Below, one piece after another: positions 48,227 through 52,121 of a DNA stretch of 64,000 bases (position 1 is its first letter; every line of letters starts with the position of its first letter). Both the position numbers and the translations under genes were made by a program. The DNA is taken from assembly GCA_001600175.1 (NCBI GenBank), contig BCJC01000006.1:1-64000 (forward strand), written 5' to 3'. The DNA is from Erythrobasidium yunnanense. Lineage: Eukaryota; Basidiomycota; Cystobasidiomycetes; Erythrobasidiales; Erythrobasidiaceae. The notes beneath the pieces are model-generated. The model ran no database searches and had not been told where the DNA came from. It saw nothing but the letters and a program-made list of their open reading frames with translations.

Positions 48227-48529
48227 CCTAAAGCGACTTCGCTAGTGTATGCAATTGTGGTGTCGTGCAATGTATCAAGTCAGACATCTGAAGAGCCAAG
48301 CCGGGGTTGTTGACAAGTTCTTGATTAATTACGCAGTATACAGCCCTTTCCCTGACATAGTAATTGCAGAAGCAACAGTCTACCAAGCCTTTTCCGCGAG
48401 TAGTCTACTAACTTCCTTGCAAACGAAGCAGAGTAACTAGCCTCATCGTTTGGACGAGACAGACTGTATGATCCAGCATAAAAGTAGTTCTTTCGCGAAA
48501 ATCGAAGAGTACGGAAGAATAGTAGTGCT
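48227..48529. other. Convergent 3' region PRE7-PCNA
   Basis: A 303-bp gap between two convergent stops, holding 3' UTRs only. Open frames that cross it from the PCNA side stop within introns of PCNA. Confidence 0.5.
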
Positions 48530-50092
48530 CTAGTCCTCGGCGACTGTAGAGTAAGGCATATATCAGTGCAATGCTTCGTCGAGCATATGTTCCGACTTAC
48601 TCTTGGGTGCGAGGTAGAACTTGACACTACCACCTTCCCACGCGTACTCGACCTATACACAAAAAGTTCAGCGAATGTTACTATAAGTATACGAACATTG
48701 TAATGTACCAATAGAGGCACATCGTTGCTCATCTGCAAGATGACAGCGTTTGATAGCGGTGTAGACTTTGCGAAGTTGTTGAGGTACTTGATAGAGAAGT
48801 TGAGGGAGACGGATTGCGTGACGGTGATAGCGACTTCTCTGTTGTCCTCTCCATCATCTCCCTTGGCGGCCTTCTTGCCTTTGCCTTTAGCAGCTGTTGC
48901 TCCCTTCTTGGTTGCTGCTTTGCCTTTGCTGCCCTTCTTCTTGGGCGCTTCGTCCTCGTCAGAACCTTCTTCCTGGTCCTCATCGGAACCCTCCTCTTCC
49001 TCATCTTCATCTTCGTCCTCCTCCTCGTCTCCAGACTCGATCTTGGGCTTTACGTCCTCATCGTCTTCCTCCATATCATCGTCATCCTTCTCCTTCTTTG
49101 CCTTCTTGCTCTTGAGCGAGCTTCCAGCTTCCTTCTTGACCTTTGTCTTTTCCTTCTTCTTTCCATTCGTATTGCCGAACTCGGTCGTGGGCTTCACAGT
49201 AACGCTTCCAGTTCCAATCTCTCCCTCGGCAGTGAACTTGACACCCTCTGGAGTAGCTTCAATCTTGACAGACTCGCCCAAGTCTTTCAGATCGCGCATG
49301 ATTTTGGCAAACTCGCCAGAGGGCATAGAGATACGCGCGTCGTAGTCGGTATCGGGAATACCAAGCTGCTCGCTGTCGATGTCCATGAGCTTGAGCTCGT
49401 ACTCTCCAATACGCGCAGCGCCTGTGTAACATAATTATCAGTCACATCGTCTTCTTCCGTGCCTGACATTCCTAACTCACGCTTTCCCTGGAACTGCAGG
49501 TTCAAAGTATCGGCATCCTCGTTTGCAGATAGCTTGCAGTTATCATCGTTGTTCGCACACTTGATAATCTTCTGGAGCGAGGCCAAGTTCATGCCCAAAG
49601 TCATGTCTCTGTCGCATCGATACTCGGAGAACGAGTCCTTCTCCAGGCTGAGCGAGACCAGAGCGACGTGCGAGTTGTCCATAGCTTGCAGTTTCTGTAT
49701 GTGAGTAATGCACCCATCGTTGCATTCGTGAAGAATACAGAAATGAGGGAAAAAGAGACGAAAACGCGTCAACATCGCTCGCTGTGCCATGCTCCCGGCT
49801 GACAGGTGAGCATATGCCTGAATACACACTACTTACGAGACCTGCATCGCTGCAGTCCAAGTTGGCGTCGGACACAAGCTCTTTGACGGCTGGATTTCGA
49901 CGAAAAGGACGCGCAGACAGATGGTCAGCGAAGACTGCAGGATCCTTGGTAAGAGGCCAGCATACAGTCGAGGATCTTCTTGAGCAATTCTGCTTTCTCG
50001 AGGGTTGCTTCCTAAACATTGATGAGGGATGGGTCAGGACCTCTCCCAGAGAAGGGTTCAGAAACCCGCTTCGACAAGGGACCTACAAACAT
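48530..50092 (-). CDS. POL30: PCNA sliding clamp with a large acidic/basic loop insert
   Basis: Homotrimeric DNA clamp of replication and repair. The first exon is just ATG TTT; then EATLEKAELLKKILDSVKEL, CSDAGLKLQAMDNSHVALVS, the centre-loop region SEYRCDRDMTLGMNLASL, and the interdomain connector EYELKLMDIDSEQLGIPDTD. Next are ISMPSGEFAKIMRDL and GVKFTAEGEIGTGSVTV. Instead of the usual ~12-residue loop, 118 codons (48835-49188) rich in Lys, Asp and Glu follow. The fold then resumes with VAITVTQSVSLNFSIKYLNN, TPLSNAVILQMSNDVPLL and VKFYLAPKIAED. All other parts have canonical length, so the insert, not the clamp, makes it ~370 rather than ~260 aa. A cell-cycle box lies upstream (50207-50212). 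Confidence 0.94.
48835..49188 (-). repeat. Low-complexity Lys/Asp/Glu segment inside PCNA
   Basis: Exactly 118 in-frame codons. The order is a Lys-rich part (KKKEKTKVKKEAG, KSKKAKKEKDDDD), a very acidic part (ESGDEEEDEDEDEEEEGSDE) and a second Lys/Ala/Gly part (KGSKGKAATKKGATAAKGKG) resembling histone-H1-like tails. No stop occurs and no plausible splice pair flanks it, so it should be translated. The DNA is a degenerate GAN/AAG repeat, suggesting expansion by slippage. Confidence 0.8.
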
Positions 50093-50438
50093 AGCGGCGC
50101 GTGTGTAGCGTTAAGACAGAAATCTGCAGGCAAGTGTGATGACTTGTACTTTGTTTTGTCGAAGTTGGCGAAAGAAGAGGTCCACGAAATACGCGCAGAG
50201 TCAGAGACGCGTCTTTGAGTGGCGATGACCGACACAAGGCAAACGATACGAGGTTTCGGAGCTGTGAGATTCAGTCTCACTGTTGGCATTGCTCTGCAAG
50301 TGCGCTTCGGGGCCGCTGGCCAGAAGGGGGAAATATCTGATAAAACAACAAATAGAAAGTATGAAGGTCCTGTCTAGCAGGGAAAGGTAGTAATCTCGTT
50401 ATCTAATCGTGGATAAACTGTTTGTCGTTATCTATCGT
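50093..50438 (-). other. PCNA promoter region
   Basis: A 346-bp gap between PCNA (5') and the GH5 gene (3'), both on the minus strand. It contains the cell-cycle box listed separately and no gene. Further ACGCG cores occur nearer the start. Confidence 0.5.
50207..50212 (-). promoter_or_regulatory. MluI cell-cycle box (MCB) before PCNA
   Basis: ACGCGT within the palindrome AGACGCGTCT, about 115 bp before the PCNA ATG. MBF/DSC1 uses this element for G1/S transcription of PCNA and other replication genes in yeasts. Partial ACGCG cores also appear at 50191-50195 (plus strand) and near 50100. Confidence 0.6.
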
Positions 50439-52121
50439 CTACTTGCTAACGAATTCGCGTACGAGCTGGTTGACTTTGCGTTTGTGTTGGCGAGTTCGCT
50501 TAGCGAACCGCTGTGTTGCAGTAGGTGCCGCTGGCAAGTCTAGTGCAGGAGCACTGCTCCTCTTCTGTTTCTTGGATTTGGTGTTATCGGCTGCTAGCGA
50601 TCGCTTGGACCAGTTGATAGCGCCAGTATCGTCTCCGTTGCCGATGACGCCCCAGCTCTCTTCGTCTGTCCAGACTTCGAAGTCGCTGGAGCCTTTGCCT
50701 GGCTTGGTGATCTCCCAATATAACCAGGGAATGCTGTACTGTTCGAGGGCTTCGGCAAAGTTCTTGATGATGGCAGCCTTGTTGGAGCCTAGAGCACCCC
50801 ATTCTTCGAACAAGAGGGTCTTGCCTTGGTCCCATGCTTTCTGTTGACCAACAGCTAGGGCAGCGGCAGTAGCCCAGGCATCGGTACCGTAGTCGTGTAC
50901 AGAGATAATATCGAGGTTGTCACAGCTGTATGCCCAGTCTGCGAGGGAGGTTTCGATTGTAATGCCGCCTCCGGTTGAGATGAGGATGCCAGATCCAGCT
51001 GGCAGGTTCTGCTTGATGCGTCCAGCTCGATCGCAACTCCACGAGGCAGAGACCAGATCCATATGACCCATAGGCTCGTTTTGTGCTTCCATGGCATAGA
51101 TAACGCTGTCGAGCTGAGCCCAAGTCTTGCCTCCCATGTATTCATTCTTGTGCTGCATGATGTCTGGGAAGGCGGATCATTAGCCATTGCAACGAACAGC
51201 AGATTATGTGAGTAACTTACGATCGATTCGCTTATCGAAGAAGGTCATAGCGCCATTGTCGGTGTAGAACACTGAAGCGTCGTAGATTTGCTGAACTCCC
51301 GAAGAGCCCCATTCTGCGATACCGTAGGTCTGGGCGTAGATGTCTGTATCCCAGAATCCGAGCTGGTATCGATCTCCGCAAGCAATGATGAGCTTGATGT
51401 TTCGCTGGGATGCTTCGTACATAAGGATGTCGATTCTCTTCAAGATGGAGTCATCGTATTTGCCGAGCTCGAAGGGTTCAAGATCCATGATTTCGGGGTT
51501 TCCGCTGTTCTTGTTGTTTGCGTAGACGTGGCCGATGAAGATTCGGAGGACAGACATGCCAGCGCTCTTCATGGCATCGAGAACAGCAATTCGATCGGAT
51601 TCTTCCAGTGCATAGAGAAAGTACGAGTTGGCGCCGAAGTAGAAACCGTTGAGATCGTTGGTGGATGCAGTTGGCGATGGTGCTGCAGATGAGGATGTTG
51701 TAGATGTGGGCGCGCGCGATCTTGTAGCAGAGCTCGAAGAAGTCGGTCTCGCTGCTGAAGAGGACGTTCGCGAGGAAGTTGCAGCGATGGTGCGCCTCTG
51801 AGTGGTGCTCGGACGAACACTTGAGGTAGATGCTTGAGAGGTGGTGACTGCAGCGCGAGCCCTGTAGATGGTGTTACTTGCAGTCGACTTCGAGGTGGAG
51901 GTGGCTTGTGTCGAGCAGTCGCATGAAATTGTGCCCTTCCCGACAGTGACGCACGATGTGCTTGCAGACGAGGCTGATGATGGTGCTCTAGCGTTGACGA
52001 GGGCTGTAGGCGTGCTCGAGCTCGACAGTGATGTCCTTGAGTTCGAAGGTGATGAGGGAGCTGCCGAGGTGAGGGCGATTGCTGTTGCCAGAACACTTGC
52101 AAAGTAGTTGAAGGATCGCAT
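50439..52121 (-). CDS. Secreted glycoside hydrolase, family 5 (mannanase-like)
   Basis: Extracellular beta-glycanase of GH5 type. Residues 1-20 (MRSFNYFASVLATAIALTSA) are a signal peptide. About 130 residues of Ser/Thr-rich, probably O-glycosylated linker follow. The (beta/alpha)8 barrel begins NGFYFGANSYFLYALEESDR, with SVLRIFIGHVYANN, the acid/base Glu in AMEAQNEPMGH, SVHDYGTDAW and the nucleophile Glu in LLFEEWGALGSNK, then PWLYWEITKPG. After the catalytic domain comes a basic tail with dibasic sites (KSKKQKRSS, RFAKRTRQHKRKV), uncommon for secreted GH5 enzymes. The layout resembles fungal beta-mannanase relatives; the substrate is not settled. One intron near 51161-51220. Confidence 0.87.

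Follow-up and report, generated by a model that had tools for sequence, protein, structure and literature searches.

A long charged insertion in the PCNA of Erythrobasidium yunnanense and its clade of PCNAs without Lys164

Introduction

In the PCNA of Cryptococcus neoformans, an insertion of more than 80 residues occupies the back loop (yeast residues 183–195), and Lys164 (K164), described as a highly conserved residue with a central part in DNA-damage tolerance, is found in all 15 fungi compared in the same report, C. neoformans among them; the other species in that comparison are stated to lack the insertion, and the part of the report consulted does not describe a phylum-wide arm or an arm motif (PMC9225081). 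Here we describe a PCNA gene on the minus strand of a 64,000-nucleotide stretch of Erythrobasidium yunnanense DNA (positions 1–64,000 of contig BCJC01000006.1, assembly GCA_001600175.1; hereafter the window), which shares with C. neoformans PCNA an insertion at the back loop, hereafter the arm, but whose clade has lost the K164 that C. neoformans keeps. In other organisms, K164 is the attachment lysine for the ubiquitin and SUMO tags that steer DNA-damage tolerance. Hamada and colleagues reportedly described, in Eur J Biochem in 2002, a Coprinus cinereus PCNA whose D2E2 loop is extended by a 107-residue insert, together with a truncated second form. The sequence retrieved here from this species (Coprinopsis cinerea, P0232, 368 aa) contains an arm with IKKE, FKPDV, and KKRK motifs; it resembles the window PCNA in carrying an arm, but K164 is present and the arm sequence is different.

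Human and Saccharomyces cerevisiae PCNA, used throughout as reference sequences, share with the window protein the core and the residues L126, I128, Y114, Y211, and G178, but they have a 12-residue loop in place of the arm and possess K164; yeast PCNA additionally has K127. The nearest named relatives among the matches listed, Cyphobasidiales sp. Tagirdzhanova-0007 (P0001, 92% identity over residues 1–183) and Cystobasidiomycetes sp. EMM_F5 (P0003), resemble the window PCNA in having the arm and a DVKPx(V/I) motif and in lacking K164, although residue 164 is Ser in P0001, Thr in P0003, and Pro in the window. No report of K164 loss or of a basidiomycete-wide arm was found in the literature searched, the coverage of which left out most subscription journals.

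Results

The PCNA gene of the window has seven exons separated by GT..AG introns of 56–142 bases, and its spliced product of 365 residues has a predicted mass of 39.9 kDa (Table 1), in line with the original prediction, made from the DNA letters alone, that this PCNA should run near 40 kDa or more. The same prediction had placed a 118-codon coding insert inside the clamp, and this was borne out by the exon model, base shuffles, codon use, and relatives. The interval 48835–49188 on the minus strand comprises 354 bases, equal to 118 stop-free codons (TTEF to NRE) within exon 5; when the bases of the insert were shuffled 2000 times, the frame stayed open in only 20 cases, and the ratio of lysine codons AAG:AAA was 23:4 in the insert and 15:5 in the rest of the gene. 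Between equal flanks the loop spans 120 residues versus 12 in human and yeast PCNA, which agrees with the loop of about 12 residues expected for these proteins and gives a net gain of 108 residues. The predicted basic–acidic–basic layout was also recovered (residues 194–218, 219–264, and 265–294).

An ordinary intron or a reading error was rejected on the basis of the open frame, the codon use, and the relatives that carry the insert. A subtler version, in which the insert is a retained intron or exitron spliced out of some transcripts, which would then yield PCNA of normal length as well, draws on some deposited models without the arm (Phakopsora P0124 beside P0122, and Punctularia P0142) and on the truncated form reportedly found for Coprinus cinereus PCNA, but the open frame, the exon-like codon use, and the conserved protein motifs within the arm all speak against it, and we regard it as very improbable. 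The lack of a consensus splice donor inside points the same way, though weakly: the pattern GT(A/G)(A/T)G(T/C/A) occurs at seven sites in 48300–50700 and at none inside the insert, yet two of the six introns of the gene itself (GTAGGT and GTACAT) also miss it. As a separate observation, the 12-mer AAGAAGGAGAAG occurs once in the window arm (49087–49098, minus strand); in Coprinus, this word reportedly marks one of the two edges of the segment missing from truncated PCNA mRNA, and the partner word for the other edge is absent from the window arm.

The whole spliced protein retrieved annotated PCNAs, and the PF00705 and PF02747 domains were scored on relative P0001. The core of the window PCNA is ordinary: K168 and G178 are retained, as are the connector-loop and partner-binding residues L126, I128, Y114, Y211, and K254. 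A PF02747 profile search of its own genome (20,915,242 bases in 10 contigs) gave matches at one gene only, in two places. The window PCNA is the sole PCNA found in this genome, and the second, normal-length PCNA gene that would have counted against the original prediction was not found by this search. For structural RNA, all Rfam families stayed below threshold across the window.

The AlphaFold model of P0001 has 198 of 373 residues at a predicted local distance difference test (pLDDT) score of at least 90, and Foldseek aligned it to solved PCNAs with template modeling (TM) scores of 0.94–0.97 over the target among the 50 matches listed, so that the core of this close relative is modeled with the clamp fold. 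Ten-residue blocks of its arm score only 39–53 and are modeled without secondary structure; a structured domain in the arm was rejected on this ground, and each subunit would carry a flexible charged arm, as originally proposed.

The change that the original prediction had missed lies twenty codons upstream of the loop. Residue 164 is Lys in 214 of 237 aligned sequences (234 retrieved proteins, the window PCNA, human, and yeast), and the remaining 23 have Ser (13), Pro (4), Ala (3), Thr (2), or Glu (1). These 23 rows include P0001 and P0004, which are two gene calls on one contig, as well as near-identical entries (P0003 and P0189 have identical arms), and they reduce to 15 non-redundant arms. 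In a tree built without column 164 from 236 of the 237 rows (P0175 dropped), all 23 K164-less sequences formed one clade with a support of 0.996, to which the K-bearing P0193, P0194, and P0196 were sisters (support 0.81); in an earlier, smaller tree the K164-less sequences also grouped together (5/5, support 1.0). The GVKF that follows residue 164 is unchanged in 21 of the 23 sequences and has become CVKF in two, a pattern that neither a sequencing error nor an alignment slip would give. In the alignment of the first 175 proteins, which contained six members of the clade, the columns at least 97% uniform outside the clade were screened for changes in three or more of these six; only 104, 164, and 206 qualified, and 164 alone is variable within the clade. 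The best reading is that K164 was probably lost once in this clade and that residue 164 varied afterwards. Judged from its sequences the clade is real, and with K164 lost, the classical ubiquitin/SUMO switch at this residue cannot work on the window PCNA. The changes in the other two columns, E104Q and T206N in human numbering, are shared by every one of the six members in that alignment.

Table 1. Coordinates of the PCNA gene of the window, its exons, and features of its arm and core
Feature	Position in window	Strand	Evidence
PCNA gene, coding span, seven exons	48530..50092	-	stop-free 365-aa spliced translation with GT..AG introns; PCNA_C matches flanking the insert; phmmer to solved PCNAs
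PCNA exons	50087-50092, 49966-50011, 49837-49889, 49481-49694, 48709-49421, 48601-48652, 48530-48543	-	
Exon 5, 713-base coding exon, encoding the arm plus the bulk of the PCNA C-terminal domain	48709..49421	-	PF02747, 1.2e-34, two stretches
Residues 184-303, in place of the 12-residue D2E2/back loop (human 184-195)	48832..49191	-	alignment with PCNA of human and yeast; disorder from the model of close relative P0001
Arm, first basic segment, residues 194-218	49087..49161	-	
Arm, acidic segment, residues 219-264	48949..49086	-	
Arm, second basic segment, residues 265-294	48859..48948	-	
VKKEAG, psi-K-x-E sumoylation-type motif, residues 201-206	49123..49140	-	across arms generally, psi-K-x-E exceeds both local shuffles and its own reverse
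Conserved (D/E)V(K/Q)Px(V/I) motif, here DEDVKPKIES, residues 227-236	49033..49062	-	motif in 22/22 arms of the K164-less clade
Codon CCA for Pro164, replacing ubiquitin/SUMO acceptor Lys164	49249..49251	-	
Interdomain connector loop start, MDIDSEQLGIPDTDY, L126 and I128 retained	49342..49386	-	

Three protein searches, with the whole protein, residues 1–183, and exon 5 as queries, were evaluated on the best 120 of 1476, 629, and 562 matches, respectively, so the counts describe the nearest part of the PCNA family; the exon-5 search added shorter gene pieces. Pooled over the three, 222 of 234 PCNAs have an arm of at least 50 residues, and arm lengths, the window arm included, range from 58 to 204 residues with a median of 118. 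The named matches listed for the whole-protein search, headed by the Cyphobasidiales sp. P0001, are basidiomycetes except for the nematode P0040 (Toxocara), which has Lys at 164 and a 13-residue loop in the 237-row alignment; it was misaligned at 164 in two earlier alignments and was excluded from the counts based on them. A loop of at least 50 residues was present in 109 of the best 120 of 629 matches to residues 1–183, a search that could not have drawn these sequences by the insert, since it was scored on those residues only. The original prediction regarded the arm as notable in this one gene and called for a search for the insert in related genomes; the insert was indeed widely found, and it is thus not peculiar to this fungus, a local version of the arm being present in most retrieved basidiomycete PCNAs. 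The insert is real and conserved, and the arm, known as a curiosity in individual species, is by these data widespread in Basidiomycota.

The 11 matches without an arm in the residue 1–183 search belong to Taphrina, a bird-labelled entry, two Chytriomyces, three unnamed sources, and four basidiomycete models, namely Phakopsora P0124, Punctularia P0142, a partial Rhodotorula P0155, and Grifola P0175. In Phakopsora pachyrhizi the loop is 23 residues in P0124 versus 137 in P0122, and it is 20 residues in Punctularia P0142; because Phakopsora also has the armed model P0122, some short-loop models may reflect annotation. The short models of Phakopsora and Punctularia may represent either mis-annotation or real alternative splicing. 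The loop ends of the bird-labelled PCNA, P0133, resemble those of Tremellales by eye (cf. P0086), and this entry may stem from fungal contamination, with the arm left out of the gene model. No Ustilaginomycotina were found by name among the matches listed.

Glu, Lys, and Asp dominate the composition of the arms (21%, 20%, and 15%), and motif statistics were obtained by comparing 121 of 163 arms, kept after redundancy removal, with shuffles confined to blocks of 15 residues. An acidic middle is present in 99% of the 121 arms and a basic later part in 98%. The KKRK-type motif occurs in 107 of the 121 (11.7 expected), psi-K-x-E in 102 (30.8 expected; reversed motif 21 versus 31.0), the extended form of psi-K-x-E, with acidic residues after it, in 75 (15.1 expected), and (D/E)xKPx(V/I) in 55 (2.1 expected; reversed motif 11 versus 2.0, maximum 9). 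The names "import" and "sumoylation" given to the first two of these motifs refer to consensus patterns, and the hits are matches to them in sequence. Reversed motifs are a useful control because they have the same composition and clustering; psi-K-x-E passes it clearly, and the KP motif by five to one. The psi-K-x-E enrichment supports the proposal of the original prediction that the arm may carry modifications, with psi-K-x-E lysines as putative sites. CK2-type sites were dropped as an arm signature (100 of 121 versus 94.3 expected), and no PCNA-interacting protein (PIP) box was found in the 121 arms, where none was expected either.

The arm could also be a neutral low-complexity expansion, a functionless charged filler in a tolerant loop, as its variable length, the very different sequences, and the dominance of Glu, Lys, and Asp would allow. 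The ordered charge layout, the enrichment of psi-K-x-E in one direction only, and the presence of one motif in every arm counted of one clade (see below) argue against this explanation, which we consider improbable.

All 22 arms of the K164-less clade (P0004 excluded) contain (D/E)V(K/Q)Px(V/I), often as DEDVKPxVKxE within an acidic run, and psi-K-x-E is present in 14 of the 15 non-redundant arms with a mean of 2.0 per arm, compared with a shuffle-mean maximum of 0.67. Among K164-bearing arms, psi-K-x-E occurs in 119 of 145, with a mean of 1.38 per arm. The window arm contains KKK and lacks KKRK, KRKR, and KRKK. The sister sequences P0193, P0194, and P0196 have shorter loops (79–93 residues) with, by eye, psi-K-x-D instead of psi-K-x-E.

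The genome of the window fungus also contains matches to yeast Rad6 (87% over 45 aa), Ubc13, Mms2, and Ubc9, one MIZ zinc finger, which is typical of SUMO ligases, seven Y-family polymerase places, and a Rad5-like gene that matches HIRAN, SNF2, helicase, and part of RING. The reading frame of the Rad5-like gene (L049, 3575–3904; L095, C5, about 1591.9–1593.2 kb) changes within the RING-coding stretch; the change may be real, or it may reflect an unrecognised intron or a sequence error. Rad18 was not found with yeast and human RAD18 as queries, which themselves score on the RING and SAP models, or with an ascomycete-like RING stretch, and none of the open frames looked over at 36 RING and 5 SAP places combined RING, a UBZ-type finger, and SAP; introns or divergence could hide Rad18, and because no fungal genome with a known Rad18 was searched as a control, the sensitivity is uncalibrated and its absence is not proven.

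Discussion

Taken jointly, the distribution of the arm, its conserved motifs, and the loss of K164 raise the possibility that the basidiomycete arm is a modification and docking tail, that K164 was lost once in this clade, and that the arm lysines most likely carry what signaling remains, a reading on which our judgement is evenly balanced. Under this reading, the D2E2 loop would bear a disordered tail of about 110 residues, the basic blocks of which could serve nuclear import and nucleic-acid contact on either side of the acidic middle; the psi-K-x-E lysines could be sumoylated by the Ubc9/MIZ-type system, and the conserved DEDVKPxV motif may be a partner site. The arm, or nothing, would then have taken over from K164 in this clade. 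In the model of P0001, the position of K164 lies in a turn between strands 157–162 and 167–172, and the arm follows strand 177–182; since alternate turns of an antiparallel sheet point alike, the arm and residue 164 are probably on the same face of the ring, a placement suggested by hairpin parity on a single-chain model.

Several observations weigh against a transfer of signaling to the arm. The psi-K-x-E motif is also carried by K164-bearing relatives, so it predates the loss and did not arise to replace K164, and lysines per arm are equal in number (23.4 in K164-less and 23.4 in K164-bearing arms). The motif is absent from the P0184 arm, and the window arm has a single copy (VKKE). An import role is weak in the K164-less clade because KKRK-type motifs are mostly missing there (3 of 15 arms versus 132 of 145 in K-bearing ones). 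The reversed KP motif is above shuffles as well, so that part of the KP enrichment could come from composition or shared descent, and shared descent remains in all motif counts, whether compared with shuffles or with reverses. Finally, the ring face was assigned by parity and not from coordinates, and the arm lysines are candidate sites of modification only.

A serious alternative is that the arm acts only as a nuclear-localization or electrostatic tail, and that K164 signaling disappeared without any transfer to the arm. Yeast survives the loss of K164 via recombination, the pol30-K164R mutant being only moderately damage-sensitive (PMC8956578). KKRK-type motifs in most of the 121 arms, the variation of residue 164 within the clade, and the failure of three protein queries and the survey of RING and SAP places, run with no fungal positive control, to find Rad18 are also compatible with a tail of this kind. 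The genome has nevertheless retained Ubc13, Mms2, and a Rad5-like gene, though these could have other uses, and the K164-less clade is the very group in which KKRK motifs are rare while DEDVKPxV and psi-K-x-E are conserved. We consider this alternative quite possible, if not the leading one.

The most specific form of the modification-and-docking reading goes further: the clade would have abandoned the K164 switch and would achieve post-replication tolerance via modifiable lysines and a conserved docking motif on three pre-existing disordered arms on the same face of the ring. We put this forward tentatively and on balance rather doubt it. A natural clade in which K164 is missing from the sole PCNA found provides an existing system for asking what purpose the switch serves and whether it is transferable. 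The arm also shows that a highly constrained ring bears a long tail in many mushrooms, rusts, and basidiomycete yeasts, a feature invisible to work on human or budding-yeast PCNA.

Beside the PCNA gene, positions 50439–52121 on the minus strand contain open frames that by eye resemble a glycoside hydrolase of the secreted type, rich in serine and threonine towards its N-terminus.
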